Virus record (IMG/VR): IMGVR_UViG_3300030329_005603
Location: 1 to 39,825 of that record
Origin: a virus
DNA: 39,825 bases
Direction: 5' to 3' (one strand)
Each line of letters opens with the position of its first letter. Position 1 is the stretch's first letter. Shown here one piece after another: positions 1,741 through 39,422 of this stretch. Position numbers and translations under genes: made by a program. The notes below the pieces were generated by a model. It had not been told where the DNA came from and did not search any database. It saw only the letters and a list, made by a program, of their open reading frames with translations.

Positions 1741-2132
1741 CTAACCGCCCTCCTATAACCGGCAGGATCGGTTTTTCTCCACCGTCTGAGAACCAAAACA
1801 GCATAACCTCTCGCCCTTGTTGATCTATTGCGAAGGCCGATATTGCCCGCATTATACGCCATTATGGCGTGTTTCCAGTCTGGAGCGCGACGTCGCCACC
1901 GAGAAAGAATCCTGGTGCCCTCATGCACATTGACTGATGGTAGCCAAAGTGACCACTTTGGGAGTCTTCTGTCCCTGAACCGAGGCATGACCTGCATGAG
2001 CCCCATCGCCCCAGCGCGACTCTCAGCAAAAATATGCCCCCTGCTCTCGTGATACTGAATAGACTCGACAAGCCCCGCAGGTATGCCATGATAATTTGCC
2101 CCAAACAAGATAATAGATGCAAGAAATAACAT
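1737..2132 (-). CDS. Lytic transglycosylase (SLT-type endolysin)
   Basis: One hundred and thirty-one residues from an ATG that overlaps the primase stop as TAATG; this start removes a poor 16-residue extension. An N-terminal hydrophobic segment (residues 1-13) could act as a signal anchor for export. The SLT fold is marked by HES with the catalytic Glu at residue 29, AMGLMQVMP at 42-50 and YNAGN at 91-95. The family cleaves the MurNAc-GlcNAc bond of peptidoglycan to form 1,6-anhydro ends. At this size and next to a holin it most likely serves as the phage endolysin. Many arginines in the C-terminal part are notable. Confidence 0.85.
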   Translation of the reverse strand: MLFLASIILFGANYHGIPAGLVESIQYHESRGHIFAESRAGAMGLMQVMPRFRDRRLPKWSLWLPSVNVHEGTRILSRWRRRAPDWKHAIMAYNAGNIGLRNRSTRARGYAVLVLRRWRKTDPAGYRRAVR

Positions 2133-4369
2133 TAGTGTACATCCTCCCTTCTTTCGGCAGAAAGACCAACGCCCGACCACTGCCTGACCCCACCCTTGCG
2201 AACATCAAGGAACCCGGCTCTCCTCATGCGCTCACCCATGGCTATCGCTGACAACTCTCTCGTGCCACTAATCTTACACCAATCTATATACGCCTTTCTA
2301 AGAGAAGATCTTGGAACAATCGCGTCCTTCACCACCACACACCTGTCGATGATAAAGCTCCCGAAACCATCTTCCTGAGCCCTATATTCCTCTGTCGCCT
2401 CTGCAACAGCAGGGCACTTTACGAAACCGTTCTTGTACCATGAAACACACCCATCAACCAACTTTGCCAGTATTCCAGCCCTCTCTCCCCACAACTTTCT
2501 ATCTAAGTCCCTGTCGATATCCTTATCATCCACCTGAAACTTGAATGGGATCAACTTCATTCGCCGCCAAACACCGTTATCTGTACCAACAATCTTTGGT
2601 TTATGATTGCCAGATATCCACATTGAATGAGTTGGTTTGAACGTCACATACGCACCACCCTTTGGGTCTGCGGTTATTGGGTCGCCTCCTGTGAGGTTTT
2701 TCATCCTAGACTCATTCAGCCGCCGATCCTCCTTCGTCTCAGCGCCAACAGCCATTCTCAGGCCGCGCAACATAATCAACTCAGCCAAATGTTTGTCATG
2801 CGCCCTGGCCTCCAACATCCCCTCTGGCAGCGCCGCTGCATAATCCCCCATAATGTCCATGGTTAAATTTAATAATGTCCCCTTGCCATTTGCGCCAGTT
2901 CCGTAACAGAAGAAAAAGACATGCTCTTTTACGGAACCAGCCAAGCTAAAGCCCAGGGCCTGTATTACATAATTTATAAGGTCATCATTGCCTTCAAATA
3001 TCTGGTCCAAAAAAGCGTCAAATATCGGGGTCTTGGTGGATGGATTATATTCGGCTGCCGCCATCTTGGTGCACAACTTTGATGGGTCGTGGGGTCTTAT
3101 TTCACCAGTCCGTAGATCAACCATGCCGTTTGGGCAATTGAGCAACCAGATATCTTTGTCCATATCCTCCACGCTTATCGGCACGTTAGGCTCAGACCTA
3201 GCCATACGCAACATGCAACCAACCTTATCGGAAGACCGGCTTTTACCAGCCCACTGAAGCTTTGCTCTCCCCTCATCGCCATCGAGTTCTTCTGCCTCTC
3301 TATATATCAGGCCGCTTGTCTCTTTTGCTAATGAATGGACCATCAACTTCTTGTCTTTGGCCCACACCTTCCCATCCCAGACATGCCAGCCATCCTTTTC
3401 ATCGCAATATCTGACGATATCTCCAAAGTAGTGGGCAAACCTTTGACCATTACCTATGTCGGTGTTTTCCTTCTGAACAACCTTCATTTTGGCAAGACTT
3501 TCAAAAAATGACGTGTCCACACGGCCATATGAATACTGCCTTGTCGGCATCGACCCCACTGGATTGGCCCCATACTCGGCCGCATTTCTAAGCTTGAGTC
3601 TCAATTCGGCTTCGGTCCATGGTGGCTGGCATTTTTGATTCCAGTCGGCCATTATGTTGTAAGCGTCATGCTCATCTAGGCCAAAGTCGCGCACCATTTT
3701 GGCGCATGTGACGAAGGTGTGGTGATCTCCCCCTGCTCCTTGAACGGCCGGGTCTCGTTTGGCCAGCCATCTCCTGGCGCGGTCTAACTTATTGAAGTCC
3801 ATCACCGTGCCGGCTGGTGCCATCTCAACCTGCCGGACCTCCCTCGTTACTGGCAGCCAGGAGCCATCATATTGCGGCAGGTCTTCTATCCAGGGGTAGT
3901 TGTAACTGCCGTTATGCCACTTATAAACAACCCCGGTCTTGTGAACAGATGGAGGCATCGCAACCCAGCCGCCATCACCTCGCAAATCAATATCTCTGCC
4001 GCCACACCTGACCCTGTTCTTCACCCTCTCACCAGGATGTCGGTAACCCCAATGTTCACCAGAGTTCTCCCTGCCGGTCGTCACCCTCCATTTGGTTGGC
4101 GGTAGGTTTTGGTTTCCCCACTCGATTGCTTCCGGCCCGTCCAGGTCTACTACGACTAGGTTTGATATTTCCCCGGTAACCACCCCCCAGTTGTGGTCTG
4201 GGTTTCTGTCGAACCAGTCCCAAACTTCCTCTGGCGTAAGTCTCTTCTCCTGAAGCGCCTTCCACTTCATCATCGGCATCTTGGCTCCATTTACATACGC
4301 CCATGGAATCACGCTCAAACCGCCCATCGCAGCGTCCACAGCCAATTGCCTTATTGCGTTTCCAGTCAT
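2132..4369 (-). CDS. Primase-helicase: PrimPol domain fused to D5/SF3 helicase
   Basis: Seven hundred and forty-five residues from an ATG with GAGGGGG eight bases upstream; a longer frame to 4411 lacks such a site. The N-terminal 165 residues are a bifunctional primase/polymerase (PrimPol) domain: VVVDLD with the metal-binding D75 and D77, the GEHWGY histidine at 106, and GGRDIDLRGDGGW. A linker leads to a D5-type SF3 helicase with Walker A GTGANGKGT at 490-498, SGNHKP at 586-591 and VWRRM at 600-604. This is the layout of P4/D5-like phage replicases that unwind the origin and prime synthesis. With no DNA polymerase in the window, it probably recruits the host replisome (inference). It is the penultimate replication function before the lysis genes. 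Confidence 0.92.
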   Translation of the reverse strand: MTGNAIRQLAVDAAMGGLSVIPWAYVNGAKMPMMKWKALQEKRLTPEEVWDWFDRNPDHNWGVVTGEISNLVVVDLDGPEAIEWGNQNLPPTKWRVTTGRENSGEHWGYRHPGERVKNRVRCGGRDIDLRGDGGWVAMPPSVHKTGVVYKWHNGSYNYPWIEDLPQYDGSWLPVTREVRQVEMAPAGTVMDFNKLDRARRWLAKRDPAVQGAGGDHHTFVTCAKMVRDFGLDEHDAYNIMADWNQKCQPPWTEAELRLKLRNAAEYGANPVGSMPTRQYSYGRVDTSFFESLAKMKVVQKENTDIGNGQRFAHYFGDIVRYCDEKDGWHVWDGKVWAKDKKLMVHSLAKETSGLIYREAEELDGDEGRAKLQWAGKSRSSDKVGCMLRMARSEPNVPISVEDMDKDIWLLNCPNGMVDLRTGEIRPHDPSKLCTKMAAAEYNPSTKTPIFDAFLDQIFEGNDDLINYVIQALGFSLAGSVKEHVFFFCYGTGANGKGTLLNLTMDIMGDYAAALPEGMLEARAHDKHLAELIMLRGLRMAVGAETKEDRRLNESRMKNLTGGDPITADPKGGAYVTFKPTHSMWISGNHKPKIVGTDNGVWRRMKLIPFKFQVDDKDIDRDLDRKLWGERAGILAKLVDGCVSWYKNGFVKCPAVAEATEEYRAQEDGFGSFIIDRCVVVKDAIVPRSSLRKAYIDWCKISGTRELSAIAMGERMRRAGFLDVRKGGVRQWSGVGLSAERREDVH

Positions 4370-4667
4370 TTTTCGCCCCCTCATAAACGTTGTGGTAGTA
4401 TCCACTATCAACAGTGGATTGGTAGTTGTTGGTCTCTACAGAAAAATACCCCTCATTGCCGTCAATCCCATATTTCCAATTAACATTAGAGTAGTCATCA
4501 CTAACCCCAAGCTTGTGAACGGCATATTCACAAAAACGAAGCATCTCGTGGAATTCCCTGTGTCTTCCACAAAGGATTATGTTTTTATTGGAAGGTCCAC
4601 GTAGTTTCCAGTAGAAATAGTCTCCGCTTTTACCCCTATTATTTCTTTTAGTCTTTTGTCTGGCCAT
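4056..4667 (-). CDS. Hypothetical protein heavily overlapping both neighbours
   Basis: Two hundred and three residues from an ATG with AGGA just upstream. It shares 91 bases with the end of the upstream gene and 314 bases with the start of the primase, so only about 207 bases are its own. The unique part is Tyr/Asn-rich (WKYGIDGNEGYFSVETNNY) and looks genuinely coding. The C-terminal half, inside the primase frame, is Gly/Arg/Lys-rich and may be a by-product of that frame. A real gene may therefore be shorter than drawn, or have lost its own end by frameshift. The family is not recognised. Confidence 0.4.
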   Translation of the reverse strand: MARQKTKRNNRGKSGDYFYWKLRGPSNKNIILCGRHREFHEMLRFCEYAVHKLGVSDDYSNVNWKYGIDGNEGYFSVETNNYQSTVDSGYYHNVYEGAKNDWKRNKAIGCGRCDGRFERDSMGVCKWSQDADDEVEGASGEETYARGSLGLVRQKPRPQLGGGYRGNIKPSRSRPGRAGSNRVGKPKPTANQMEGDDRQGELW

Positions 4668-7333: not shown

Positions 7334-7594
7334 CTAAAAAAATCCCCAGTCCTTCTTCCATTGTCGATATTGGTCTGGTGGCATTAGCACGGCCTTCCCG
7401 TGATCTGTTAGGTGGTATAGTCCTTCAGCCTCCATAATCAGACCGCGATCTATTAGTGTTGGTATTAGCCTTTGAGATCGTTTGCCTACCGCCCTATCTT
7501 GGATATACTCTTTGGTGCGGGGTTTGGTTGCCAACCACTGGAGTACGGCCAGTTGCCTGCCGCCGACATCATTCCATTTTCTAGTCGCCGTCAT
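7334..7594 (-). CDS. Winged-helix DNA-binding protein
   Basis: Eighty-six residues, starting at an ATG that overlaps the previous stop (ATGA). The order of helices and the LIDRGLIMEAEGLYHLTDHGKAVL segment (about residues 46-68) fit a winged helix with its beta wing. RQLAVLQWLATKPRTKEYIQD at the N-terminus would form the first helices. It probably binds DNA or modulates transcription of the replication operon. It lies directly after a MerR-like protein, so the two may act together. Confidence 0.65.
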   Translation of the reverse strand: MTATRKWNDVGGRQLAVLQWLATKPRTKEYIQDRAVGKRSQRLIPTLIDRGLIMEAEGLYHLTDHGKAVLMPPDQYRQWKKDWGFF

Positions 7595-7980
7595 TTTACC
7601 AAGAACCTCCTTACTCTAGCGAGCATGGCGTTGATTGACTCCAACTGGGCCTTTAGCTCCTTAAAGTGGTCATCAATTGAGGTGCTAACAATTTCCATGC
7701 GCTTCATTGCCATGTTGAGCTTTGCCTCTTCATCACAAAGGTGGACCACGATCTCCTCCATGGAGTAGTTTAACCTGACCAGCCTGTCTATTTCCCTTAC
7801 TCTCTCAATAACCCATGGTTCATATGCCATGTGCTTCCCTGGGCCACCTTTGTGATGAGGAACTTTAGTTCCCTTTATCAAGCCCCACTCGTTCTCCCAC
7901 CTTCTGATTGTCTGGACCGATCTATGCGCTGCCCTGGCAAGGTCGGCTCTGGTCACATATGTGTCAGGATGTCTTATCAT
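7591..7980 (-). CDS. MerR-like HTH protein with coiled-coil tail
   Basis: One hundred and twenty-nine residues from an ATG preceded by GGAGA. The N-terminal half is a MerR-type winged helix: YVTRADLARAAHRSVQTIRRWE (recognition helix with RRWE), a basic loop, then a helix beginning with YEPWVIERV. The C-terminal 50 residues are a heptad-like coiled coil, expected to dimerise the protein. No cysteine pattern for metal sensing is seen. A transcription regulator within the leftward operon is the likeliest role. Confidence 0.7.
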   Translation of the reverse strand: MIRHPDTYVTRADLARAAHRSVQTIRRWENEWGLIKGTKVPHHKGGPGKHMAYEPWVIERVREIDRLVRLNYSMEEIVVHLCDEEAKLNMAMKRMEIVSTSIDDHFKELKAQLESINAMLARVRRFLVK

Positions 7981-10408: not shown

Positions 10409-10951
10409 CTAGAACGGAATGTCTGTTTTGTCCCCACCATATTCCGAGATGTGGCAAAGAAACTTTATGTCAATAAACCCACCGACACGGCCGTTGGGAT
10501 ATTGAATTTCAGTTCGCTTGAACTCAAACACAGCCTCATCTGACATTTTCTGAAAGAATTCAGCTTGTCTTGCAACAGAACCATCCCATCCCATCTTTTT
10601 CATCACCTCTTGGGTGACTGGATCGAAGTCATTGCACCAATATTGTCGCGGGGTGGCTTTCATGACAACAGGCTCAGGCAAGGGGTGGACCTTGTACCCG
10701 TCTTTTTTATTCACGCCCTCGGCAAGAACTTCAATCAGAAAGTCAAGAACTTTTATTGTCCCATCCTTCTGAAAGTTTAGCTCTTCTCGAAGGCCAAGGA
10801 CCTCAACCAGTCTGGCGTGACATGTCACGCCCAAAGGGCTGAACTTGAAATATTTCTTTTGTCGTGTTGGTTGTTTTAGGGCTGAAAATCCGCTGATCAG
10901 ATATGCCTCTGGATCTTTATTTTGTTTTTGAGTAGTATTATAGATGTTCAT
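10409..10951 (-). CDS. Hypothetical protein with SSB-like DIPF C-terminal tip
   Basis: One hundred and eighty residues from an ATG with AAGAAGGA upstream, behind a likely promoter. It starts with a polar tail (NIYNTTQKQNK), has a mixed alpha/beta body, and ends GGDKTDIPF. Single-stranded DNA-binding proteins of bacteria and phages end in an acidic tail closing with DIPF, which docks partner enzymes. Here the acidic run is weaker. As first gene of the replication operon, before the exonuclease and helicase, it is a good candidate for the phage SSB or an SSB-mimicking adaptor. An OB fold is not obvious by eye. Confidence 0.6.
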   Translation of the reverse strand: MNIYNTTQKQNKDPEAYLISGFSALKQPTRQKKYFKFSPLGVTCHARLVEVLGLREELNFQKDGTIKVLDFLIEVLAEGVNKKDGYKVHPLPEPVVMKATPRQYWCNDFDPVTQEVMKKMGWDGSVARQAEFFQKMSDEAVFEFKRTEIQYPNGRVGGFIDIKFLCHISEYGGDKTDIPF

Positions 10952-14731: not shown

Positions 14732-14811
14732 CACATACCCCCATTATCAAAAAACAACGACCAGCCGATCACCACGACAGCCAGCCACAACCAGCAAATA
14801 GTTAAGATCAT
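14731..14811 (-). CDS. 26-residue hydrophobic membrane peptide
   Basis: The ATG at 14811 overlaps the previous stop as ATGA and has the ribosome site AGGAGG six bases upstream. The product is MILTICWLWLAVVVIGWSLF followed by a short polar end, a single membrane span covering nearly the whole peptide, with four Trp. Its TGA overlaps the next ATG (TGATG). Coupling on both sides and the strong site argue for a real gene. Function is unknown; an early membrane-active or superinfection-exclusion peptide is a guess. Confidence 0.6.
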   Translation of the reverse strand: MILTICWLWLAVVVIGWSLFFDNGGM

Positions 14812-15206
14812 GACTGCCTCCTCTTTTCAAAATACTCTGGTAACTCCTGGATAGGACCGGAAGCCGTGCAGGACTCTAGCCAAAAGCCAACCCGCCCCCG
14901 ACGATCAACGCCGCCAAGAACCGAAAGCAAAGAATCGCGGATTAAATCCATTGACCAGCCATAATCAGCCAAAACCAGATCGCGACCGACACCAACCCGA
15001 GTGAAACCACTCCCGCGTTGACGTTGGTGAAGTAGATCATAAACCCGGACAGCCCCCGACCGATCACCGCCAAAATGAATCAGATCAATTGAACCCTCAA
15101 TCCCGGAATCAGATCGCAACTGGTAGCAAATCTTCCATCGCTCCATGGAATCTTGACGCTCAAGCCTGACCCGTTGGTCAGCCCAGATTCGTTGTATTTT
15201 TCTCAT
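14808..15206 (-). CDS. Hypothetical first gene of the leftward arm
   Basis: One hundred and thirty-two residues. The ATG at 15206 is chosen because GAAGGGGTTTGTG precedes it. Upstream in-frame ATGs overlap or precede the predicted -10 element, so they would not be in the transcript. The protein is basic at its N-terminus (MRKIQRIWADQRVRLERQ) and alpha/beta afterwards, with several Arg-Gly pairs. The family is not recognised. Being first after the early promoter, it may act against or rewire host functions. Confidence 0.65.
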   Translation of the reverse strand: MRKIQRIWADQRVRLERQDSMERWKICYQLRSDSGIEGSIDLIHFGGDRSGAVRVYDLLHQRQRGSGFTRVGVGRDLVLADYGWSMDLIRDSLLSVLGGVDRRGRVGFWLESCTASGPIQELPEYFEKRRQS

Positions 15207-15255
15207 CACAAACCCCTTCGCCGCCGCCGCGGCCAAAACACTATTTTCATCTTTC

Positions 15256-15283
15256 ATTATAACACGCCTATTCACAGTGTAAA
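15256..15283 (-). promoter_or_regulatory. Early leftward promoter
   Basis: Reading leftward, TTTACA (15283-15278) and TATAAT (15261-15256) are 16 bases apart. The -10 is a perfect consensus. Transcription would begin near 15249, giving a leader of about 43 bases before the ATG at 15206. The -35 lies inside a perfect palindrome, so it is likely repressed by a bound regulator. Confidence 0.75.
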
Positions 15284-15307
15284 GTTACCTTTACAAGCTA
15301 ATAGGCG
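15265..15307. promoter_or_regulatory. Operator-like nested palindrome over the leftward -35
   Basis: TGTAAAG-N4-CTTTACA (15278-15295) is perfect and covers the -35. It is flanked by CGCCTATT (15265-15272) and AATAGGCG (15300-15307), a second, outer inverted repeat. This is typical of a dimeric or tetrameric repressor site. Confidence 0.65.
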
Positions 15308-15308
15308 T

Positions 15309-15346
15309 TTTCAAGGGGCAAAGTCTGACAAAATAAGCCCTTGAAA
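15309..15346. repeat. Hairpin in the divergent control region
   Basis: TTTCAAGGG (15309-15317) and CCCTTGAAA (15338-15346) form a 9-bp stem around a 20-base loop that contains GTCTGACAAAAT (15323-15334). A near-copy of that loop motif (11 of 12) occurs at 15488-15499. The role is unknown. Confidence 0.5.
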
Positions 15347-15354
15347 CTATTGGG

Positions 15355-15464
15355 TTATGTCAGAGTTGACAGAGTTTTGTCTTTACCAGAAAAAGTACGA
15401 GAAAACAGAGTAAAAAAGCCCCGCTGGCCGCTGCGATACAACTAATCTGTCAACTCTGACATAA
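15355..15464. promoter_or_regulatory. Paired 19-bp inverted repeats, each holding a TGTCA-N4-TGACA dyad
   Basis: The 19 bases at 15355-15373 are repeated exactly in inverse at 15446-15464, 72 bp apart. Each copy contains the dyad TGTCA-N4-TGACA. A CATAAT sequence at the outer edge of the right copy could be a weak rightward -10. A pair of operators for a looping repressor, or an origin element, is likely. The rest of 15207-15582 holds no gene. Confidence 0.65.
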
Positions 15465-15582
15465 TACCGATCACTCGCCCGTTTAGGGTCTGGCAAAATC
15501 TGACAACTAGACTTAAGAAGGAATTGGCCATAGCCTGGATGAAACAGCGCCAATTTCCAACGGTGCCAGCAAGGAAAATCAG

Positions 15583-16068
15583 TTGAGCAACAAAACAGCC
15601 CCAATTTTCCTAGCTCCAGAAGAAGAAGCCACGCTCCACACCCTGGCAGCCACCCCAGGCGATAACGAAAAATCAGAAAGAACGAGAAAACGCGCAACAA
15701 TAATCTTACAATGGGCAGCAGGGGAAACCATCAAATCATCAGCCGCCCTGATGAACGTCTCAGAAAGTCAGATCAGTTACAGCCGCCACAACTACAGGAA
15801 AAAAGGCCTCAAATGGTTTGACCCAGAACGACGAACGACTACAGACTTGGCAGCCCTGGCAGACAAGGCGCTAAAATCTGGCAACCCGGTCTCGGTGGCT
15901 GATGTTTCAGCGCTAACACTGGCGCACCTGTCAAACATGCAAGAAACAAATGGTGCCAACGCAAAAGTAGCGCTTGATTCTCTGGCCGTGCTCTTGAGAT
16001 GCAGCCAACACCTTGAGCCCAAAAAAGCAGGGGACATTGCTGCCGCCATCGATGAGGCCATGGATTGA
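15583..16068 (+). CDS. HTH protein, candidate small terminase or regulator
   Basis: One hundred and sixty-one residues from a TTG start with AAGGA eight bases upstream. Residues 30-80 have an IS630-type helix-turn-helix (ERTRKRATIILQWAAGE, then ALMNVSESQISYSRHNYRKKG, then LKWFDPERR). The remainder is Ala/Ser-rich helix. It is the first gene of the rightward arm, next to the operator region and 0.4 kb before the terminase gene pair. It could be the DNA-recognition (small) terminase subunit or a regulator that binds the nearby palindromes. I cannot separate the two from the sequence. Confidence 0.75.
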   Translation: MSNKTAPIFLAPEEEATLHTLAATPGDNEKSERTRKRATIILQWAAGETIKSSAALMNVSESQISYSRHNYRKKGLKWFDPERRTTTDLAALADKALKSGNPVSVADVSALTLAHLSNMQETNGANAKVALDSLAVLLRCSQHLEPKKAGDIAAAIDEAMD

Positions 16069-16457
16069 AAATTTGCGAGGCCCTACAGCAAGATCACCAG
16101 CCGACCAGGAGAAAAATAGAGGCCAGACGAAAAAAAATTTTTCGGGCTCTACATGAAACATATTGCAATCAAGTATTAGCTACCCAAAGGACTTTAAGGA
16201 TGCTTCGTACCTCAGCGCCCCTACAGATGGCTCGAAGCCTCGCTAGTCGCTCGGCCTCGCCCACGTTGGAATGCAGTGGAGTACATGGAGGTAGGCAGCC
16301 GCGAAGGCAAGCAGACCCTCCTCACGTCGATAGAGGCAGTGGTGGTGCAGAGGCGGTCAACCCGGGTGTGCTTCGCCCCCCCGGGGGCCGCGTATTGGGT
16401 CCCATTGGAATTTTATTACGGCCCCCATTTTTTAAACCGACTTGGAGAAACCAATGA
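16065..16457 (+). CDS. Doubtful open frame in an atypical gap
   Basis: An open frame of 130 codons begins at a TTG overlapping the preceding stop, with GAGG upstream. The first 40 residues are basic and helical and could be coding. After that the product is Arg/Pro/Gly-rich and resembles random GC-rich sequence. A second frame (16276-16461) is open for 61 codons. The 385-bp stretch to the next ATG has no other convincing gene; it also contains an A8T5 block at 16128-16144. Confidence 0.25.
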   Translation: MKICEALQQDHQPTRRKIEARRKKIFRALHETYCNQVLATQRTLRMLRTSAPLQMARSLASRSASPTLECSGVHGGRQPRRQADPPHVDRGSGGAEAVNPGVLRPPGGRVLGPIGILLRPPFFKPTWRNQ

Positions 16458-16906
16458 CTGAAGAAAACGCATCACTGGAAGAGATTAAGCCTGCACTCAT
16501 AGTCGAGGGGGTTCTATGCAATAAGATTGAAAGCATGACTGGCGCACTAGAATGCCTCAGAGCGCCAGACCTCCTGGGCATGGACCCAATGACCAACGTG
16601 AGAACGACGTATCATATTATGAGGATTGAGGTTCAAGAGATGGTTGACCTCCTGAAGCCCTATAACCAAGCGTCACTCGCGCCAAAGCACAGACTCGCCA
16701 GACGTCTGTTCAAGAAGTTTCTAAAGCACATGCAAGAGAATGATGTCATGAATACCGAGTTGAAGACGGCCAATGACCCTGTTTGTCTTGCCTTCGCCAC
16801 AGAGGCCGTTAGGTTTATAAAGGCCTTTCATGAGGTCATGCTGGAGAGGAATACTGCCAAGAAACGCACTATGACAACGCAGGTGTATTGTGCCTCCAGC
16901 AATTGA
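16454..16906 (+). CDS. Hypothetical protein upstream of the large terminase
   Basis: One hundred and fifty residues from an ATG with GGAG seven bases upstream. It is mostly helical with a basic patch (KHRLARRLFKKFLKHM) around residues 75-92. It overlaps the large terminase gene by 17 bases. In many phages the gene immediately before the large terminase is the small subunit, and length and helical content fit. No HTH is evident, so the upstream HTH protein remains a competing candidate for that role. Confidence 0.65.
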   Translation: MTEENASLEEIKPALIVEGVLCNKIESMTGALECLRAPDLLGMDPMTNVRTTYHIMRIEVQEMVDLLKPYNQASLAPKHRLARRLFKKFLKHMQENDVMNTELKTANDPVCLAFATEAVRFIKAFHEVMLERNTAKKRTMTTQVYCASSN

Positions 16907-18551
16907 GCTATCTCAGCAAGAGCGCCGCATCGTATGGTTGAAGCGTGAGGTTCATCGATGCAAGATGGATTTTTATTACTTCTGCCGCACCTACCTCAAG
17001 ATTGTTGATAAGAAGAATAAGCTTATTAGTCTACAGCCAAAGCCTTCTCAGAGAGAGTTGATCACGCTTCTTGAGGTCAAGACGATGATCTACAATTTGA
17101 AGGCTCGAAAGATGGGTTCATCCACCGCGATAGCGGCCTACTTCTTTTGGAAAGGACATTTTACAAAGAACCTCCGCACCCTCGTGGCAGCCCATACGAT
17201 GGAGGCAGCCGAAGAGATCTTCCAGATATACTCGAATTTTTATGAGAACCTGCCGGTTTGGCTCAAGCAAGGCCCGTTTTCCCTAAAAAAGGACAATGTG
17301 AGGGCTATGAAATATGAGCATGGAGGTGGGGTCAGGGTGACAACAGCATCGAGCCCATCCGCCCGTGGCGGTACGCCCCATCAACTTCATCTATCTGAAT
17401 TTGCCCACTACACCAACATGGAGGTGACTATCGGGGCTATTATGGCCAGCCTTCCAGACGGATGCACCATCGTAAAGGAGACCACGGCCAATGGACTCAA
17501 TGATGCGTACGCCGCATGGGTAGCTGATGACGGGACCGAAAAAGTCTTCTTCCCGTGGACCAAAGACCCAGACTACACCACCAAAGAAAAGCCCAAGAGA
17601 GTGCCGCCTAAGATGAGGGCTTATGCCAAGAAGCATGGGGTCTCTAAAGAGCAACTCAACTGGGCGGCCACTGCTTTTTATGAAAGATGTGCTGGGCAAT
17701 GGAAACTTTGGGACCAAGAATTTCCGATCACAGCCGAAACAGCGTTTGTAACCAGTGGTGACAAGTTTTTTAGCCTGTCTTTTCCGCACTGCCGTATGAC
17801 GAGGGATAATTATCATGACTATGAAGGATATGTTGAATACGAAAAGCCCAAACCTCACCATATTTATAGTCTTGGCGTGGACGTTGCTTCAGGCTCTAAA
17901 AATGGGGACTATTCAGCTTTTGTGCTATTAGATGTAACAAATAAAAAACGCCCCACATTGGTAGCCTCTAGTTACACTAAAAAGCCACCAGAAGCCTTTG
18001 CCATTGATGTACACGAGGCTGCAAAACGTTTCAACGCCATGACGACCATCGAAATCAATGGCTACGGTCTGTCTGTTGTCAACTATATGGTGCAGAAGCA
18101 CTGGCCACACATGTACAGGCGAACACAGCATAACAAGACGACAGGCCAAACACAGGTGTATCTGGGCTTTTCGACAAACAAGGCTACCAGAGGGCTTATT
18201 CTAGCCCGATTGCATAGTTACATCGAAAAACGAATGATCGATGTCACATGTGACATACGAGTTTGCTCCGAAATAAATCAGATGATTTATAAGAATGGCA
18301 AACCCCAATGCGCTGAAGGTGAGTTCAGCCATGACGATATTTTGATGGCATTTGCCATGGCGCTCGAAGGCATGAGCCAAATATCAAAACTAGAAGAGGA
18401 AGTTAAGTCTAAAAGGCCGAAGACAAGGCAAGAGATCATCCAATGGGAGATGCGAAATTGCCGAATCTTTGACCCCTCAGAATTTGACGACGACTTTATT
18501 GACACGTCACAAGCAGAATCTGTCCTGGACGCGATGGAATCTATCTTGTAG
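16890..18551 (+). CDS. terL: Terminase large subunit
   Basis: Five hundred and fifty-three residues from a GTG start. The ATPase has a Walker A variant KARKMGSST (71-79), Walker B LHLSEF with the catalytic Glu at 170, and a coupling-type KETTANG (196-202). The C-terminal RNase H-like nuclease has GVDVASG (D331), a second Asp at 340, TTIEING (E388) and SHDDILMA (D482/D483). It cuts concatemeric DNA and pumps it into the prohead through the portal. The length is usual for the family. Confidence 0.95.
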   Translation: MPPAIELSQQERRIVWLKREVHRCKMDFYYFCRTYLKIVDKKNKLISLQPKPSQRELITLLEVKTMIYNLKARKMGSSTAIAAYFFWKGHFTKNLRTLVAAHTMEAAEEIFQIYSNFYENLPVWLKQGPFSLKKDNVRAMKYEHGGGVRVTTASSPSARGGTPHQLHLSEFAHYTNMEVTIGAIMASLPDGCTIVKETTANGLNDAYAAWVADDGTEKVFFPWTKDPDYTTKEKPKRVPPKMRAYAKKHGVSKEQLNWAATAFYERCAGQWKLWDQEFPITAETAFVTSGDKFFSLSFPHCRMTRDNYHDYEGYVEYEKPKPHHIYSLGVDVASGSKNGDYSAFVLLDVTNKKRPTLVASSYTKKPPEAFAIDVHEAAKRFNAMTTIEINGYGLSVVNYMVQKHWPHMYRRTQHNKTTGQTQVYLGFSTNKATRGLILARLHSYIEKRMIDVTCDIRVCSEINQMIYKNGKPQCAEGEFSHDDILMAFAMALEGMSQISKLEEEVKSKRPKTRQEIIQWEMRNCRIFDPSEFDDDFIDTSQAESVLDAMESIL

Positions 18552-32981: not shown

Positions 32982-35900
32982 ATGGCAGAGCCAAATATCC
33001 CAGAGCTTCCAGAGGATTTTGGCGGCAATATCCCCACACTTCCCGGAGAAGATGATGGTGTCCCCTCCCTCCCACCGGGCTTTGACCTGCCAGAGTCCGG
33101 GCCAACCATCCACCAGCCATCCCTATTCTCAGAGGCCCAGTCGGCCATAGAGAGTGGTGTCAAGCCGGAAGAGATGAATGAGGCCTTCAAGAAGGTCTAC
33201 GGAAAAACATTCGATCAGGTAACAGCCATTGTCGGCCCGTTCGCCACGATGCAAGACATATCGCCACCAGTACCAGAGGAGGGGGCCGCCGAACTTAGAC
33301 CGGCAGGCCTGTATCAGCTTGGCCTCCCTGTCGGCCTCCCCGATGAGGCCACCACATTTTCAGAAGGGGACACCCCTGTCTCGGAATTGAAACCAAAAGA
33401 ATACTTCCTCTCCCGCCTCCCTGGCGGCCTATACGGAGCCGTTCCCGGCCTCGCTGGTGGTGCCGCCAAGGCTTTTGCAGAGATGGCGGGGGTGGAGGTT
33501 GGTAAGAAGGGGGCTAAAAAAAGACTCACTCTTATAGAGGATGCAGAGAAGGCGATCAAGGAAGATCTGCTGGATCGAGTCGGCATGGACATGTACAAGC
33601 AGATCGTCACCGATGGTGTCCAGGTCTCAGAGGACCTGTTTGGCTTATTCCTCGATACCATGGGATCAACTCCACCATCCCCCAAGGATAGGGCTTGGGC
33701 GGAAAAGAACCCGAACCTTGGAGGGAAGGGAAATCCCTCCGAGGAATTTATGGCCCAACTCAAGCACAGCTATGACACATGGGAACACATGGTCCCAGGC
33801 ATGATAGGCCTTGCCAAAGCATACTGGGACCTTGGGTCCCGTGGGGCGGTATGGCGTAGGGACGAGAAGCGACCCGAGGGTGTGAGCCAACTGGACCACA
33901 CCATAGAAGGTTATCAGGCGATCCTCTCCCGCCCCTGGACGCTTGCAATGGCCATAGCTCCAGTGCTGAAGGCCGTCAAACTAAGAGCCAGGGCACATGG
34001 TGTTACAGACGTAGCTGCGGAGATGACCAACAAACTAAAGTCGGACCTAAACAAAACTATCATACAAACAAGCGACATAATACGGGCCAAAGACATGCAA
34101 CATCGCGCCTATGCTTTCGACAAGGCCACAGGGGTGCTGAAGGATGTGGGGACTGTTGCATCCCAATTCAATAAATACACATACCTAAGAGGCATGGTGT
34201 ATGGCGATGTGGTTGGTGGAACCGTCACGGGAATGTCAATGGCCATGGCCGATGCCTTCCTCAGACAACGGCTACCAAGGACCAGGATTGGAGCCATGGC
34301 GGCAGATGCCGTGATGAACTTCGTCTTTGACGCAAGGTTCTCCACCGTTGAATCAATTGGCGACAATCTGAACCTTATCTATGATGAGCCGAGGTTCAAC
34401 CAAGCCGCCATAGAGGCGGAAGGGGTGCGTTACGGCAAGCAGATAGAGAAAGGGGAGGGCAAGCTAAGAGTTGTTGGCCCAAAGAAGCCTGGGATTAAGA
34501 TCGATCGCGGCCCGGAACCGACCCCACAAAAGGGAGTGTCATCAAGAACCCCGCCCCCAGAAGCCTTTTCAAAGTCTGGGGCATGGAGCCATCTCACAAA
34601 GGAGCAGAGAGATTTTATTAGGAGTTTCATTCCTAAAGAAGACATGGAGACCTTCGTAAGACACTTGGTCTCTCGACAGGCAGAGCTTATTGCGAGGGCA
34701 GACAGGCCGGTAAGCGTAAGAAATGCAAGTGGTGGCAAGTTAGACCCGTGGACACATGACCCAGACATGCCAAGGACAAAAGTTTCGGGTGATTGGAGAG
34801 CCAGTCTCGATCGAACCATAAAGAACTATGAGGCGGCCCAGCGCCAGAAAAGTATGTTTGATGACGCGGCGTCCATGGAGTACGCAGAGTTTGAGCGTTC
34901 TGAGGGAAGGGTTGTCACGTCGACGGCCGACAGGAGTTCTGTAATTCAGAAGGAAGGGTGGGGCTCGATGCCTACAGAGGCCGCCCAAGCATACAAGGCT
35001 GCACAGCAGGCTGAGTTCGATCTATTCAGGGCCATGGAGGGGGCGAACGAGCTTCGCCGGCCAGAAAAGTCGATACTGGCAACAACCCTGGACCCAATCG
35101 TCCAGGAAATTGCGGATGCTTTTGGGGGGGAGATTTCAATCCTAGACCCCCTTCTTGGGGAGCATGTGCCGATCCCATCTGGCCCAAAGAAGCCCGGAAT
35201 AAAGATTGACCGTGGCCCAGAACTGACCATCAAGACCGATCCCAGCAAAGCACAAACAGTGGCCGGCACCGAACTGCACCCAGAGGGAGCCACATGGAAA
35301 GGCGGCAAGCTGGGCATAGACGCCCCTCCCCCCGCTGGCGGCAAGAAGGCTCCATTCGACGAAGGAGCGATTCAGCGAGGGAATAAGCCATGGGCCGAGG
35401 GCATACCAGGAGCCTCTCAGGACGTGATGAAAGCTCCGGGGGCCAAAAGTAAGGCAGAGTGGATAAAGCGAAAGCATCAGGCCGAGAAGTCAGAGGCGTT
35501 TGAAGGAGCGTTTGGCCGTGGCGGCTCACACCTCCAAAGGGGCTTTGCATCCGAACTTGAGTTTCACCAACACCATGGGACGTTGCCCGGATATATTGAT
35601 GACTTTATCGTCGCATCCTCTAAAAATCCAAAAGGAAGGGAAATCAAAAACAGGCCGGTCGATCCCACCGGGGAAGCGCATGACCATGCCTTTGAGCCAC
35701 CAGCTAGGGGGCAGGACCTCCCCAAGATGTTTGAGTCGCCAGACCATCCTGCGGCAGTCCTGTTCAAAAAAGAACTGATTGAGAGGGTTGGGGAGATAGC
35801 AAAGAAGGTCGAGCAGCCAAGCAAGGCTATCTTGGCCGAAGCAGAGCGACTATATCCAAAACCAAAGCCCACTGGCGGCCCCGAAATGGAAGTAAAAAAA

Positions 35901-38900
35901 TCAGGACGGAAACGCGGTCAAGGAACCATGTTTGCTGGCGACCCTGGCAATACCTACTTCAGAAGCGATGGCAAGATCGTAAAGTCACTGACCCAGGCAG
36001 AGCTGAGTGGCGCTCCAGAAAAGATAACAATCCATAAAGATGCGAAAATCCTAAAAGAGGGCTCCAAAGAATTCCAAGTACTTGTTGGCAAAGACAAGGG
36101 CGGGGACTTTGTAGAAAGGGCCGTTGAGGTGGCCAGGGAGAAGGACTATTCGGTAATTGAGTTCAAAGAGCATGGGGTGGAGATCCTCACAAAGGACGCC
36201 ATTGTCAGTGTTGAAAAAGTAGGCGAAAAAGCAACAGGGGCTGCCCCAGCAGCGGCCAGGAGCCCGGTTTCACTTGATGGCGAAGGAGTTGCCAGGACAA
36301 AGGCCGACTCCACATTTGTCTCAGAAGCTGAGGTCAGAGCGCCAAGGGAGATGAAAGGAAAGGTTAGTGGCGATGTCTCCAATAAATCCAGACTAAACCT
36401 GGATGACAAGGACCCGGGCCTAAAGGAGTATATCCAAAGCAAGAGGATGCAGAAGATACTTCACGTCAACGAGGCGGGAGAGGTCGTTCTCTCACCAACA
36501 GGCGAAAACTTCCAGGTCATCGCCGGCCGACATGTCACATCCAAAGTAATTGGCGGCAAAAGAGTCCAGCGAGAAGGGCTAATGGACTCCCTCAAAGAGC
36601 TTTACGCTCTAGAGTCTACATTCACAGACTCACTTCCCATTGGGGCCAGAGGTAAGACGCTGCCACCAACACGAGAGTATCGGCTTGCAAACAGACTGTA
36701 TTTAGACACGCTGAGAGACAATAGCACCATGCTCTACCATAACGCTGGAGCAAGACAAAGCCTGAAGCTCCAGGCCGCAAAGGATGTTGGCCTTAGCAAT
36801 AAGGCTGCACAAAGGTTCGCCAACAACAGTGACGTTGACGCCACAGTGAGGCAGTTCATTAGAGACTCATTCAAAGAGATGGGTAAGATTGAGGAGGGTA
36901 AAAGAGTACAGTTTCAAGATGTGTCCATCAGGTTTGAAGGCAAGACCATCTCCCTGACAGATGATGCTGGACCAGCGTTCGTTAGATTCATGCAAAAGCA
37001 TAGCCCCAAAGAGCTTGCGAAAATTCAAGGGGCTGCGGCGTCTACCTTCTTTGAGGGTCTTGCTAGGAAAAACGCCAAACTTACCTTCCTTCGACAGGTT
37101 GGAAAGATGATTGACGAAAGGTCAGCGTCAAAAATAGCCCTCGACATGATCAACGGTAAGGCGATCCCAGCCATCGACCCAAAGGTAACCAGACAACAAC
37201 TGAGGGTCGAGCTAGATGCGCTGAAGACATCGGGGCGATTCAGTGAGGCACAGAAGACACAAGCTGAAATGATGTACAGCAGGCTCGTTGAGACCAAGCT
37301 AGATCTAAACCAGCTTAGGAAGCAGATTCAAGAGGAGGTGTTTCCCGGTAAAGAGCCAGAATTTTTGAACCTTGCTGGCAAATGGAAAAATGGCATGCTG
37401 GTAGACAGGCAGCTTAACTGGGCCATCACCGCGATGAAACAAGTCCATTCAATAGTTGACGCCCATATATATTTAAAAACGACGATGGGGATCCACAGGG
37501 GGATGAAAAAGTCGTTCGCAATGAAAAACCCATCAACAGTCGTTCGCAACGCAGCACAGGCCTCATTCATGATTATGATGGAAGAGGGCCGTGGAATATC
37601 TCTTGTAGGGGACTTCTATAAATTAGCCAGGTTCTGGAAAAGATATCTGGACGGCGAGGAGATGTCCCCGAAAGACCTGCGTAGAGCCCGAATCTTCCGC
37701 GACTCTGGCGGCCACGACGTAGACCATGCCGTCGCTGAACTGGGGGATGTCTTTCGCGGGCACTTTGATGATCCAACAGCGACCAAGGTTGGTAGAGCGC
37801 TCGGTAAGGCCGGCACCTGGGCGGGAAAAATCTCAAAGGCCGGGGAGTTCCCATACAGGGCCGGCGATGCTGGGCCTAGAGCCTATAAGATGTTCAAGAC
37901 CATCGACACACACATCAACTACCTTGAGAGGCTGAACCCTGGTGAATATGCGACAATGGCCATCAGTCCAAACAAAAGCGTGACCTTGTTCAAAAATAAG
38001 GACGGCACCTTCACCATGAACAACAGGAAGCTCTCCAGGAAGCAGCTTGATAAGGTGATTGGGAAGGCGGCGAAGGCCCCCGTCGATCTTAATGTATTCG
38101 ACTATGGGGATGTGCCTCTTGGTCAGAGGCTCCTCAGAGAAATGCCGGTCATTAGCTCCCTCTATCCAACTTGGATCACAAAGGCCGCATTCGGCAACAG
38201 AAAGAGCCTCCCCATATCAATGATTGACGCGACTGACGGCATCAACTTCATAACCAACAACAAAGGCATAAATATAGAGATGTCTAACGCCGCCGCAGCC
38301 CTGTCTGTCAGGCGAGCCATCTTCTTCAGCTTCCTGCAATCCCTGGAAAGTGACCCAGATAAATTCGACATGTCCAAACTGCGACCACTCATGGGCTTCG
38401 ATCTGTCATCCGGTGTTATTGGCAGTGCTGTTATGAGACCGGAGAGCTTCCAAGGGAAGAAGACAACCGTCAAACAATTCGGCCTATCCAGCGCCAACAA
38501 CATGGAAGGCTTGGCCATGGTAATGCGGATTGGGGAGTCTATGGCAGGACTGCCAAGATATCTTATGGAACTCGGCCTCAATGACACACAGAAGCTCAAA
38601 AGGTACGACAAAGAACTGGCCGAGCTTTGGGACAAAAAGGGCAAGACCAAGGCCGAGATAACTAGAATAAACAACATGAAGGCATTTTGGGCCAGAAGGA
38701 GAATGTATGACCCAAGACGGGACGTAAGAACCCTGCTCGCCCTCGCTGGCGGCCCCATTCTTGACGCATTCGCCTTTGACATGGAGAAGCGTAACAGGCT
38801 ATCGGCGTACAAAGAAGATAAGATCCAGAAAATGATGTGGAAAGGACTTTTGACGGGATACATTGAACCCATCAGAGAGTACCTATTCGTCAACAGGAAG

Positions 38901-39422
38901 GAATTTGTAGATCGCCCGTTCGATGACTATCGAATGACACCATCCAAACACATGGTGGATCAGATAACAGGAGTCGCCTTCAAGACCGCCGTCTATGGGG
39001 GTGACAAGGATGCCGCCAGATATAATAAGAAGCAAATAATTGAGTCGCTGAATGCTTCAATTACCGTCGCGGCCAGGAAAAGGGAGAAGGAAGCAGAGAA
39101 GAACCTTGTGAAGGCCAAGCGGTCCAAGAAGTCTGCATTGCTGGAGAATGCCCGCACACCAGGGAAGAACGACATCTCAAAATTTGATAAGAGAATTGAG
39201 GACGCAAGGACTCTGCTGAAAACAAAGCAGCAGATCCACCAACACGCCCAGAGATATGTCGCCGCCCTAGATCGCTATTGGGAAGAAAGGCTCCAGGATT
39301 TCTATAAAGAACTGAGAACTAAAACCATGGGGAAGTATGGAAGCGGCAGAGAGAGGAGCAGGAGGCCCGATAGGATAAAGAACGTCGGGGCACCAAAGCA
39401 GGGGATCAGGATCGAGCGGTGA
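32982..39422 (+). CDS. Giant internal virion / polyvalent protein, 2146 residues
   Basis: The largest gene of the window, from an ATG with AGGTG before it. A Pro-rich start with repeated xPxLP motifs is followed by charged helical regions. A 14-residue motif GPKKPGIKIDRGPE occurs at 499-512 and 734-747, and a relative closes the protein (2136-2146). Residues about 980-1080 have a pattern like phage ADP-ribosyltransferase/polyvalent domains (VAREKDYSVIEFKEHGVEIL). Residues about 1510-1600 (NPSTVVRNAAQ) recall large-polyvalent-protein associated domains. Such giants are co-ejected with DNA in podoviruses. The domain calls are tentative; virion location is likely. Confidence 0.75.
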   Translation: MAEPNIPELPEDFGGNIPTLPGEDDGVPSLPPGFDLPESGPTIHQPSLFSEAQSAIESGVKPEEMNEAFKKVYGKTFDQVTAIVGPFATMQDISPPVPEEGAAELRPAGLYQLGLPVGLPDEATTFSEGDTPVSELKPKEYFLSRLPGGLYGAVPGLAGGAAKAFAEMAGVEVGKKGAKKRLTLIEDAEKAIKEDLLDRVGMDMYKQIVTDGVQVSEDLFGLFLDTMGSTPPSPKDRAWAEKNPNLGGKGNPSEEFMAQLKHSYDTWEHMVPGMIGLAKAYWDLGSRGAVWRRDEKRPEGVSQLDHTIEGYQAILSRPWTLAMAIAPVLKAVKLRARAHGVTDVAAEMTNKLKSDLNKTIIQTSDIIRAKDMQHRAYAFDKATGVLKDVGTVASQFNKYTYLRGMVYGDVVGGTVTGMSMAMADAFLRQRLPRTRIGAMAADAVMNFVFDARFSTVESIGDNLNLIYDEPRFNQAAIEAEGVRYGKQIEKGEGKLRVVGPKKPGIKIDRGPEPTPQKGVSSRTPPPEAFSKSGAWSHLTKEQRDFIRSFIPKEDMETFVRHLVSRQAELIARADRPVSVRNASGGKLDPWTHDPDMPRTKVSGDWRASLDRTIKNYEAAQRQKSMFDDAASMEYAEFERSEGRVVTSTADRSSVIQKEGWGSMPTEAAQAYKAAQQAEFDLFRAMEGANELRRPEKSILATTLDPIVQEIADAFGGEISILDPLLGEHVPIPSGPKKPGIKIDRGPELTIKTDPSKAQTVAGTELHPEGATWKGGKLGIDAPPPAGGKKAPFDEGAIQRGNKPWAEGIPGASQDVMKAPGAKSKAEWIKRKHQAEKSEAFEGAFGRGGSHLQRGFASELEFHQHHGTLPGYIDDFIVASSKNPKGREIKNRPVDPTGEAHDHAFEPPARGQDLPKMFESPDHPAAVLFKKELIERVGEIAKKVEQPSKAILAEAERLYPKPKPTGGPEMEVKKSGRKRGQGTMFAGDPGNTYFRSDGKIVKSLTQAELSGAPEKITIHKDAKILKEGSKEFQVLVGKDKGGDFVERAVEVAREKDYSVIEFKEHGVEILTKDAIVSVEKVGEKATGAAPAAARSPVSLDGEGVARTKADSTFVSEAEVRAPREMKGKVSGDVSNKSRLNLDDKDPGLKEYIQSKRMQKILHVNEAGEVVLSPTGENFQVIAGRHVTSKVIGGKRVQREGLMDSLKELYALESTFTDSLPIGARGKTLPPTREYRLANRLYLDTLRDNSTMLYHNAGARQSLKLQAAKDVGLSNKAAQRFANNSDVDATVRQFIRDSFKEMGKIEEGKRVQFQDVSIRFEGKTISLTDDAGPAFVRFMQKHSPKELAKIQGAAASTFFEGLARKNAKLTFLRQVGKMIDERSASKIALDMINGKAIPAIDPKVTRQQLRVELDALKTSGRFSEAQKTQAEMMYSRLVETKLDLNQLRKQIQEEVFPGKEPEFLNLAGKWKNGMLVDRQLNWAITAMKQVHSIVDAHIYLKTTMGIHRGMKKSFAMKNPSTVVRNAAQASFMIMMEEGRGISLVGDFYKLARFWKRYLDGEEMSPKDLRRARIFRDSGGHDVDHAVAELGDVFRGHFDDPTATKVGRALGKAGTWAGKISKAGEFPYRAGDAGPRAYKMFKTIDTHINYLERLNPGEYATMAISPNKSVTLFKNKDGTFTMNNRKLSRKQLDKVIGKAAKAPVDLNVFDYGDVPLGQRLLREMPVISSLYPTWITKAAFGNRKSLPISMIDATDGINFITNNKGINIEMSNAAAALSVRRAIFFSFLQSLESDPDKFDMSKLRPLMGFDLSSGVIGSAVMRPESFQGKKTTVKQFGLSSANNMEGLAMVMRIGESMAGLPRYLMELGLNDTQKLKRYDKELAELWDKKGKTKAEITRINNMKAFWARRRMYDPRRDVRTLLALAGGPILDAFAFDMEKRNRLSAYKEDKIQKMMWKGLLTGYIEPIREYLFVNRKEFVDRPFDDYRMTPSKHMVDQITGVAFKTAVYGGDKDAARYNKKQIIESLNASITVAARKREKEAEKNLVKAKRSKKSALLENARTPGKNDISKFDKRIEDARTLLKTKQQIHQHAQRYVAALDRYWEERLQDFYKELRTKTMGKYGSGRERSRRPDRIKNVGAPKQGIRIER

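Follow-up and report, generated by a model that had tools for sequence, protein, structure and literature searches.

In phage lambda, the cosB site lies upstream of terS and comprises the R1–R3 sites that are bound by gpNu1, together with a bend introduced by IHF. The pac region of phage SPP1 contains three sets of direct repeats and is cut between pacL and pacR (PMC4737164, PMC6316719). It spans the promoters of the terminase small subunit (TerS) and the start of its gene, and TerS attaches at pacL and pacR, on either side of the cut (PMC6316719). According to work cited in the SPP1 review, the terminase also represses its own synthesis (PMC6316719). For the TerS of SF6, binding was reported to depend little on the pac repeats and more on DNA bending (PMC4737164).

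The window analyzed here is one whole virus record of 39.8 kb that represents an uncultured phage. An array of short repeats occupies the gap separating its leftward from its rightward genes, and the reading we favor, to which we give slightly less than an even chance, is that the array constitutes a pac-like region for packaging initiation and autoregulation comparable to SPP1 pac. The leftward genes encode a D5 primase-helicase (2132–4411, assigned by family scan), a ResIII/DEAD helicase, an exonuclease, a Dam methylase and a MerR-like protein (7591–7980), and the first gene of the leftward operon (14808–15206, minus strand) specifies an orphan protein of 132 amino acids. The rightward genes encode an HTH_23 protein, a helical protein, the terminase large subunit (TerL), the major head protein and a P22-like portal. 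TerL (16890–18551, plus strand) matches PHROG_2 (2.2e-25), and its nearest annotated matches are the terminases of T4-like cyanophages and pelagiphages. Other features of the window include an ORF of 2146 amino acids at 32982–39422 that has no Pfam or PHROG match, a 15-bp perfect inverted repeat, TCATCACAAAGGTGG, whose arms lie 99 nt apart within the MerR-like gene (7730–7858), and a perfect 18-bp palindrome, GGCGTGACATGTCACGCC, at 10814–10831 within a leftward gene.

An unbiased scan over all 7-letter words in which one position was left free picked out TCTGNCA, a word that all of the non-promoter sites of the region have in common. It occurs in seven copies within 182 bp (15324–15505), a clustering matched by 0 of 300 dinucleotide shuffles and by 0 of 391 other windows of the same genome, so that the repetition beyond chance that characterizes pac- and cosB-type sites is present at this locus. 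The first copy (15324–15330, plus strand) stands alone. The second and third (starts 15358 and 15367, minus strand) lie in the left arm of a 19-bp perfect inverted repeat (15355–15373/15446–15464), the fourth and fifth (starts 15446 and 15455, plus strand) lie in its right arm, and the last two (starts 15489 and 15499, plus strand) occupy 15489–15505. The paired copies follow each other at 9 bp in the two arms and at 10 bp in the outermost pair, a spacing of about one helical turn, and the copies flank on either side the 72-nt centre that separates the arms; three of the seven lie outside the palindromes. The inverted repeat is the longest perfect one in the window (arms within 260 nt; the runner-up has 15 bp), and each of its arms contains TGTCA-N4-TGACA, which is the TCTGNCA sequence read as two opposed halves. 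Three A-tracts are located in the centre (15390–15417), a kind of triplet that the window contains at just one other place, and their phasing at steps of 11–11.5 bp predicts, from the letters of the sequence, that the centre is bent.

Two smaller features accompany the array. A 9-bp hairpin, TTTCAAGGG / CCCTTGAAA (15309–15317/15338–15346), carries one TCTGACA in its loop and has a size that, taken alone, is within chance, and GTCTG[A/G]CAAAAT occurs just twice in the window, with starts at 15323 and at 15488. An earlier sequence-only reading of this DNA had pointed out both of these features as well as the 19-bp pair with its TGTCA-N4-TGACA cores, and all of them are borne out. The small palindromes and the hairpin are individually no larger than expected by chance, but the statistics of the seven-copy word, an inverted repeat longer than any other in the window and an independent contig (L007, see below) with the same layout at the same place contradict both a coincidental gathering of unrelated short repeats and an assembly artefact; we regard either explanation as scarcely credible. 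The array is a real, non-random element and probably a functional one. When phage records were searched with the region at the nucleotide level, only short chance matches came back, and the array has no match in Rfam. A search of IMG/VR for pairs of TGTCA-N4-TGACA lying 62–90 nt apart yielded 43 loci, which were treated as chance matches because they are mostly unrelated and coding (37 lie inside coding genes).

The gene directly after the array, which heads the late rightward genes, encodes an HTH_23 (homeodomain-like) protein of 161 amino acids (15583–16068, plus strand, TTG start; Pfam HTH_23, 3.5e-07). The protein displays the traits anticipated for a TerS, that is, an HTH domain followed by a helical remainder, a length of about 150–190 residues and a location near TerL, although the helical part is seen only in a poor predicted structure (pLDDT 54). 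The sequence matches no TerS family in PHROGs, Pfam or NCBIfam, and neither does that of its homologue in L007, which has 186 residues and likewise lies upstream of TerL. The best function-assigned PHROG match of the protein is a CII-like regulator (0.0019), and its similarity to the TerS profile of the relatives is weak (hhalign probability 24%, p = 8e-4). In more distant relatives, whose TerL is about 40% identical, a TerS matching phrog_4102 (best 1.2e-23) is found near TerL, and in one of them (L021) it is the first rightward gene and takes the place that the HTH_23 gene has in the window.

A conserved helical-bundle protein precedes TerL (16442–16906, plus strand; an ATG at 16454 is also possible). 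Its family is conserved, with members close to TerL in about 30 loci of related viruses, and its confidently predicted structure has no significant match in the PDB. The protein was rejected as TerS, as the two occur together in many relatives. Because nothing in the window matches the phrog_4102 profile and the helical protein is found alongside TerS in relatives, elimination leaves the HTH_23 protein as the candidate, which is also the sole one by position, and we infer that it is the TerS of this phage. Searches with the first leftward protein, the HTH protein or the HTH alignment revealed no close relatives in viral contigs besides L007, and none in bacterial genome contigs or phage records.

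Two close relatives were retrieved from IMG/VR by means of TerL, with identities of 84 and 64%. The contig L006 (of L004) stops inside the gene preceding TerL, and L007 (contig of L005; 9.9 kb, TerL 64% identical) is the sole syntenic relative that covers the junction. Its gene order is that of the window, with leftward genes, a gap, the HTH homologue (27% identical), the helical protein (30% identical) and TerL. The gap of L007 has no alignable similarity to that of the window, but it contains an array of its own, with five copies of CCCGTGAA, the minus-strand copies at the left and the plus-strand copies at the right. The word CNGTGAA, which occurs six times including the five copies of CCCGTGAA, is matched by 0 of 300 shuffles and by 1 of 88 windows. 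The inverted arms of L007 are longer and imperfect, and lie 81 nt apart as compared with 72 nt in the window. Opposite-facing repeat clusters around a centre are thus found in both phages. The same architecture in different letters is what would be expected if the binder were the fast-changing HTH protein encoded next to it, and the repeat motif, as judged by comparing the two sequences, seems to follow the downstream HTH protein.

The array is not universal in this phage group. The TerS leader of L031 includes three palindromic repeats of the AATTTCCAATTGGAAA type at 130–195, in keeping with the pac-like reading, whereas that of L033 has only a 12-bp inverted repeat with arms 65 nt apart, and that of L021 has neither an array nor a repeated word above chance. 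In most relatives, TerS lies directly behind another gene, and the inverted repeats found there do not exceed background. A further locus, L025, displays four repeats of the TCTAAACGGGA type at 20–130, one pair of them palindromic, in about 0.9 kb devoid of long ORFs before a rightward gene set.

The only strong non-coding match between the window and L007 is located on the far side of the HTH gene. It is a 57-bp element (16377–16433) that is 83% identical to positions 2261–2317 of L007, with an alignment score of 65 against a maximum of 26 for shuffled versions of these gaps. Identity between the TerL codons of the two phages amounts to 61% in total and to 36% at third positions, which is near saturation, so that neutral DNA should not align. 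No other copy of the element was found among the related loci searched, and it has no match in Rfam. A conserved RNA was rejected, since the RNA folds of the element differ between the two phages and are not better than those of shuffles. The element is a candidate for the place where the DNA is cut for packaging or for a transcription signal, and a terminator would likewise agree with its GC-rich inverted repeat and the T-run behind it. A two-part signal may be envisaged, in which a fast-changing TerS array coevolves with an as yet unrecognized HTH_23-type TerS, while TerL cuts at the conserved 57-bp element about 0.9 kb further on, beyond terS; we consider this arrangement distinctly improbable.

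On the other side of the array, a leftward promoter is found at 15256–15283 (minus strand), with a -35 box TTTACA (15283–15278), a 16-bp spacer and an extended TGn -10 box, TGTTATAAT, that ends at 15256. TTTACA-16-TATAAT is the sole 11/12 match to the sigma-70 consensus in the 39.8 kb, as determined by a consensus scan. A palindrome, TGTAAAG-TTAC-CTTTACA (15278–15295), covers the -35 box as a candidate operator of this promoter, and an outer inverted repeat, AACACGCCTATT / AATAGGCGTTTT (15261–15272/15300–15311; 92% complementary, 27 nt between the arms), flanks it. The perfect -10, the palindromic -35 cover and the outer palindrome had all been described from the sequence and are present as described. 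Since the window contains 24 palindromes of equal quality, the one covering the -35 box is alone at chance level. It also agrees with the TyrR box, TGTAAA-N6-TTTACA. The palindrome would represent an ordinary control element, separate from the array.

The regulatory scheme proposed in the sequence-only reading fares less well than its elements. MerR sites lie between the -35 and -10 boxes in spacers of 19–20 bp; the palindrome here covers the -35 box and the spacer has 16 bp, so that, although the MerR-like gene exists, control of the leftward promoter by MerR was rejected. The protein at 1417–1740, proposed to be Myb/SANT-like, has no Pfam match. The idea of two regulators retains support, as two unrelated site types, one at the leftward promoter and the other, TCTGNCA, nearer the rightward genes, make two DNA-binding proteins plausible. 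The suggested switch between early leftward and late rightward transcription, by contrast, is not supported. A consensus scan of 15200–15583 revealed no rightward sigma-70 promoter, and neither an integrase nor a known repressor is among the best 25 families listed in the family scans; a lysogeny switch of the CI/Cro type was rejected on the same grounds, only a leftward promoter being present. Packaging combined with autoregulation fits better than a switch, because the comparison with L007 links the array to the HTH gene that follows it, whose product is the TerS candidate by position.

An operator array would account for part of these observations. The HTH protein, or some other regulator of phage or host origin, would occupy the two 14-bp TGTCA-N4-TGACA sites about 90 bp apart and loop the bent DNA between them, thereby controlling its own gene and perhaps the leftward promoter. 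Every arm is indeed a perfect pair of half-palindromes, the strong leftward promoter adjoins, and the weak CII-like match of the HTH protein points in the same direction, while the terminator-like hairpin and T-run in the 57-bp element could possibly make the HTH gene a unit of its own. Operators of this kind are nevertheless difficult to reconcile with the non-palindromic word CCCGTGAA of L007, with the TCTGNCA copies outside the palindromes and with the missing rightward promoter. The HTH gene is moreover the head of the late rightward genes, and the palindrome pairs retrieved from the collection are mostly coding chance matches. We therefore consider an operator array fairly unlikely.

The cumulative GC skew reaches its minimum at 15.0–16.5 kb. 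This is compatible with an iteron replication origin, in which the D5 primase-helicase encoded at 2132–4411, or a partner, would bind the repeats and melt the A-rich centre, but the minimum is confounded because transcription diverges at the same spot. The repeats in both orientations beside an A-rich, probably bent stretch are in keeping with such an origin, and the origins of SPP1 consist of repeats plus AT-rich DNA (PMC6316719). The array precedes the HTH gene in both phages, a position that speaks against an origin as far as the 9.9 kb of L007 allow a comparison with the location of an initiator gene; we hold this reading to be improbable.

According to the pac-like reading, the HTH protein, as the putative TerS, would bind the TCTGNCA copies that flank the 72-nt centre bent by the phased A-tracts. 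Binding would wrap the DNA, and the single complex so formed would recruit TerL; the DNA would be cut here, and packaging would start. As the array lies in the leader of the HTH gene, the protein probably represses its own synthesis as well. Given that bending is reported to matter more than the repeats for SF6 TerS, the A-tract centre may equal the repeats in importance. If this reading is correct, a phage group that has no annotated close relative in the collections searched gains both a packaging site and a candidate TerS. It would also constitute a natural case in which a docking motif and its protein change together while a nearby non-coding element stays fixed, so that a division between recognition by TerS and cutting by TerL could be probed on two small pieces of DNA. 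Should the array be an operator or an origin instead, it would belong to ordinary phage regulation.

A comparison with known systems reveals likenesses and differences in each case. The array resembles lambda cosB in having several short candidate TerS sites and a predicted bend upstream of the putative terS, but the TerL of this phage matches PHROG_2, and the annotated proteins nearest to it are terminases of T4-like cyanophages and pelagiphages. Its pair of 14-bp palindromes, separated by about 90 bp with bendable DNA between them, recalls the looped repressor operators of the gal and lac type, from which it differs by the extra copies outside the palindromes in the window and by the non-palindromic word of L007. 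With the iteron origins of SPP1 (oriL/oriR) and P4 (ori/crr) it shares multiple short repeats near A-rich DNA, and the phage encodes a D5 primase-helicase, but in either phage the array occupies the leader of an HTH gene on the late side. The pacL-pacC-pacR arrangement of SPP1 and SF6 corresponds to it in the repeat boxes on both sides of a centre, in the bent DNA, predicted for the array, and, provided that the HTH_23 protein is TerS, in the location at the terS promoter or leader and in the HTH-type TerS (PMC4737164, PMC6316719). It differs in that the repeat sequences of this phage are unrelated, and in that the array stops short of the gene and has its repeats in inverted orientation about the centre. 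The array is most likely a docking site of a known kind, built from new sequences.
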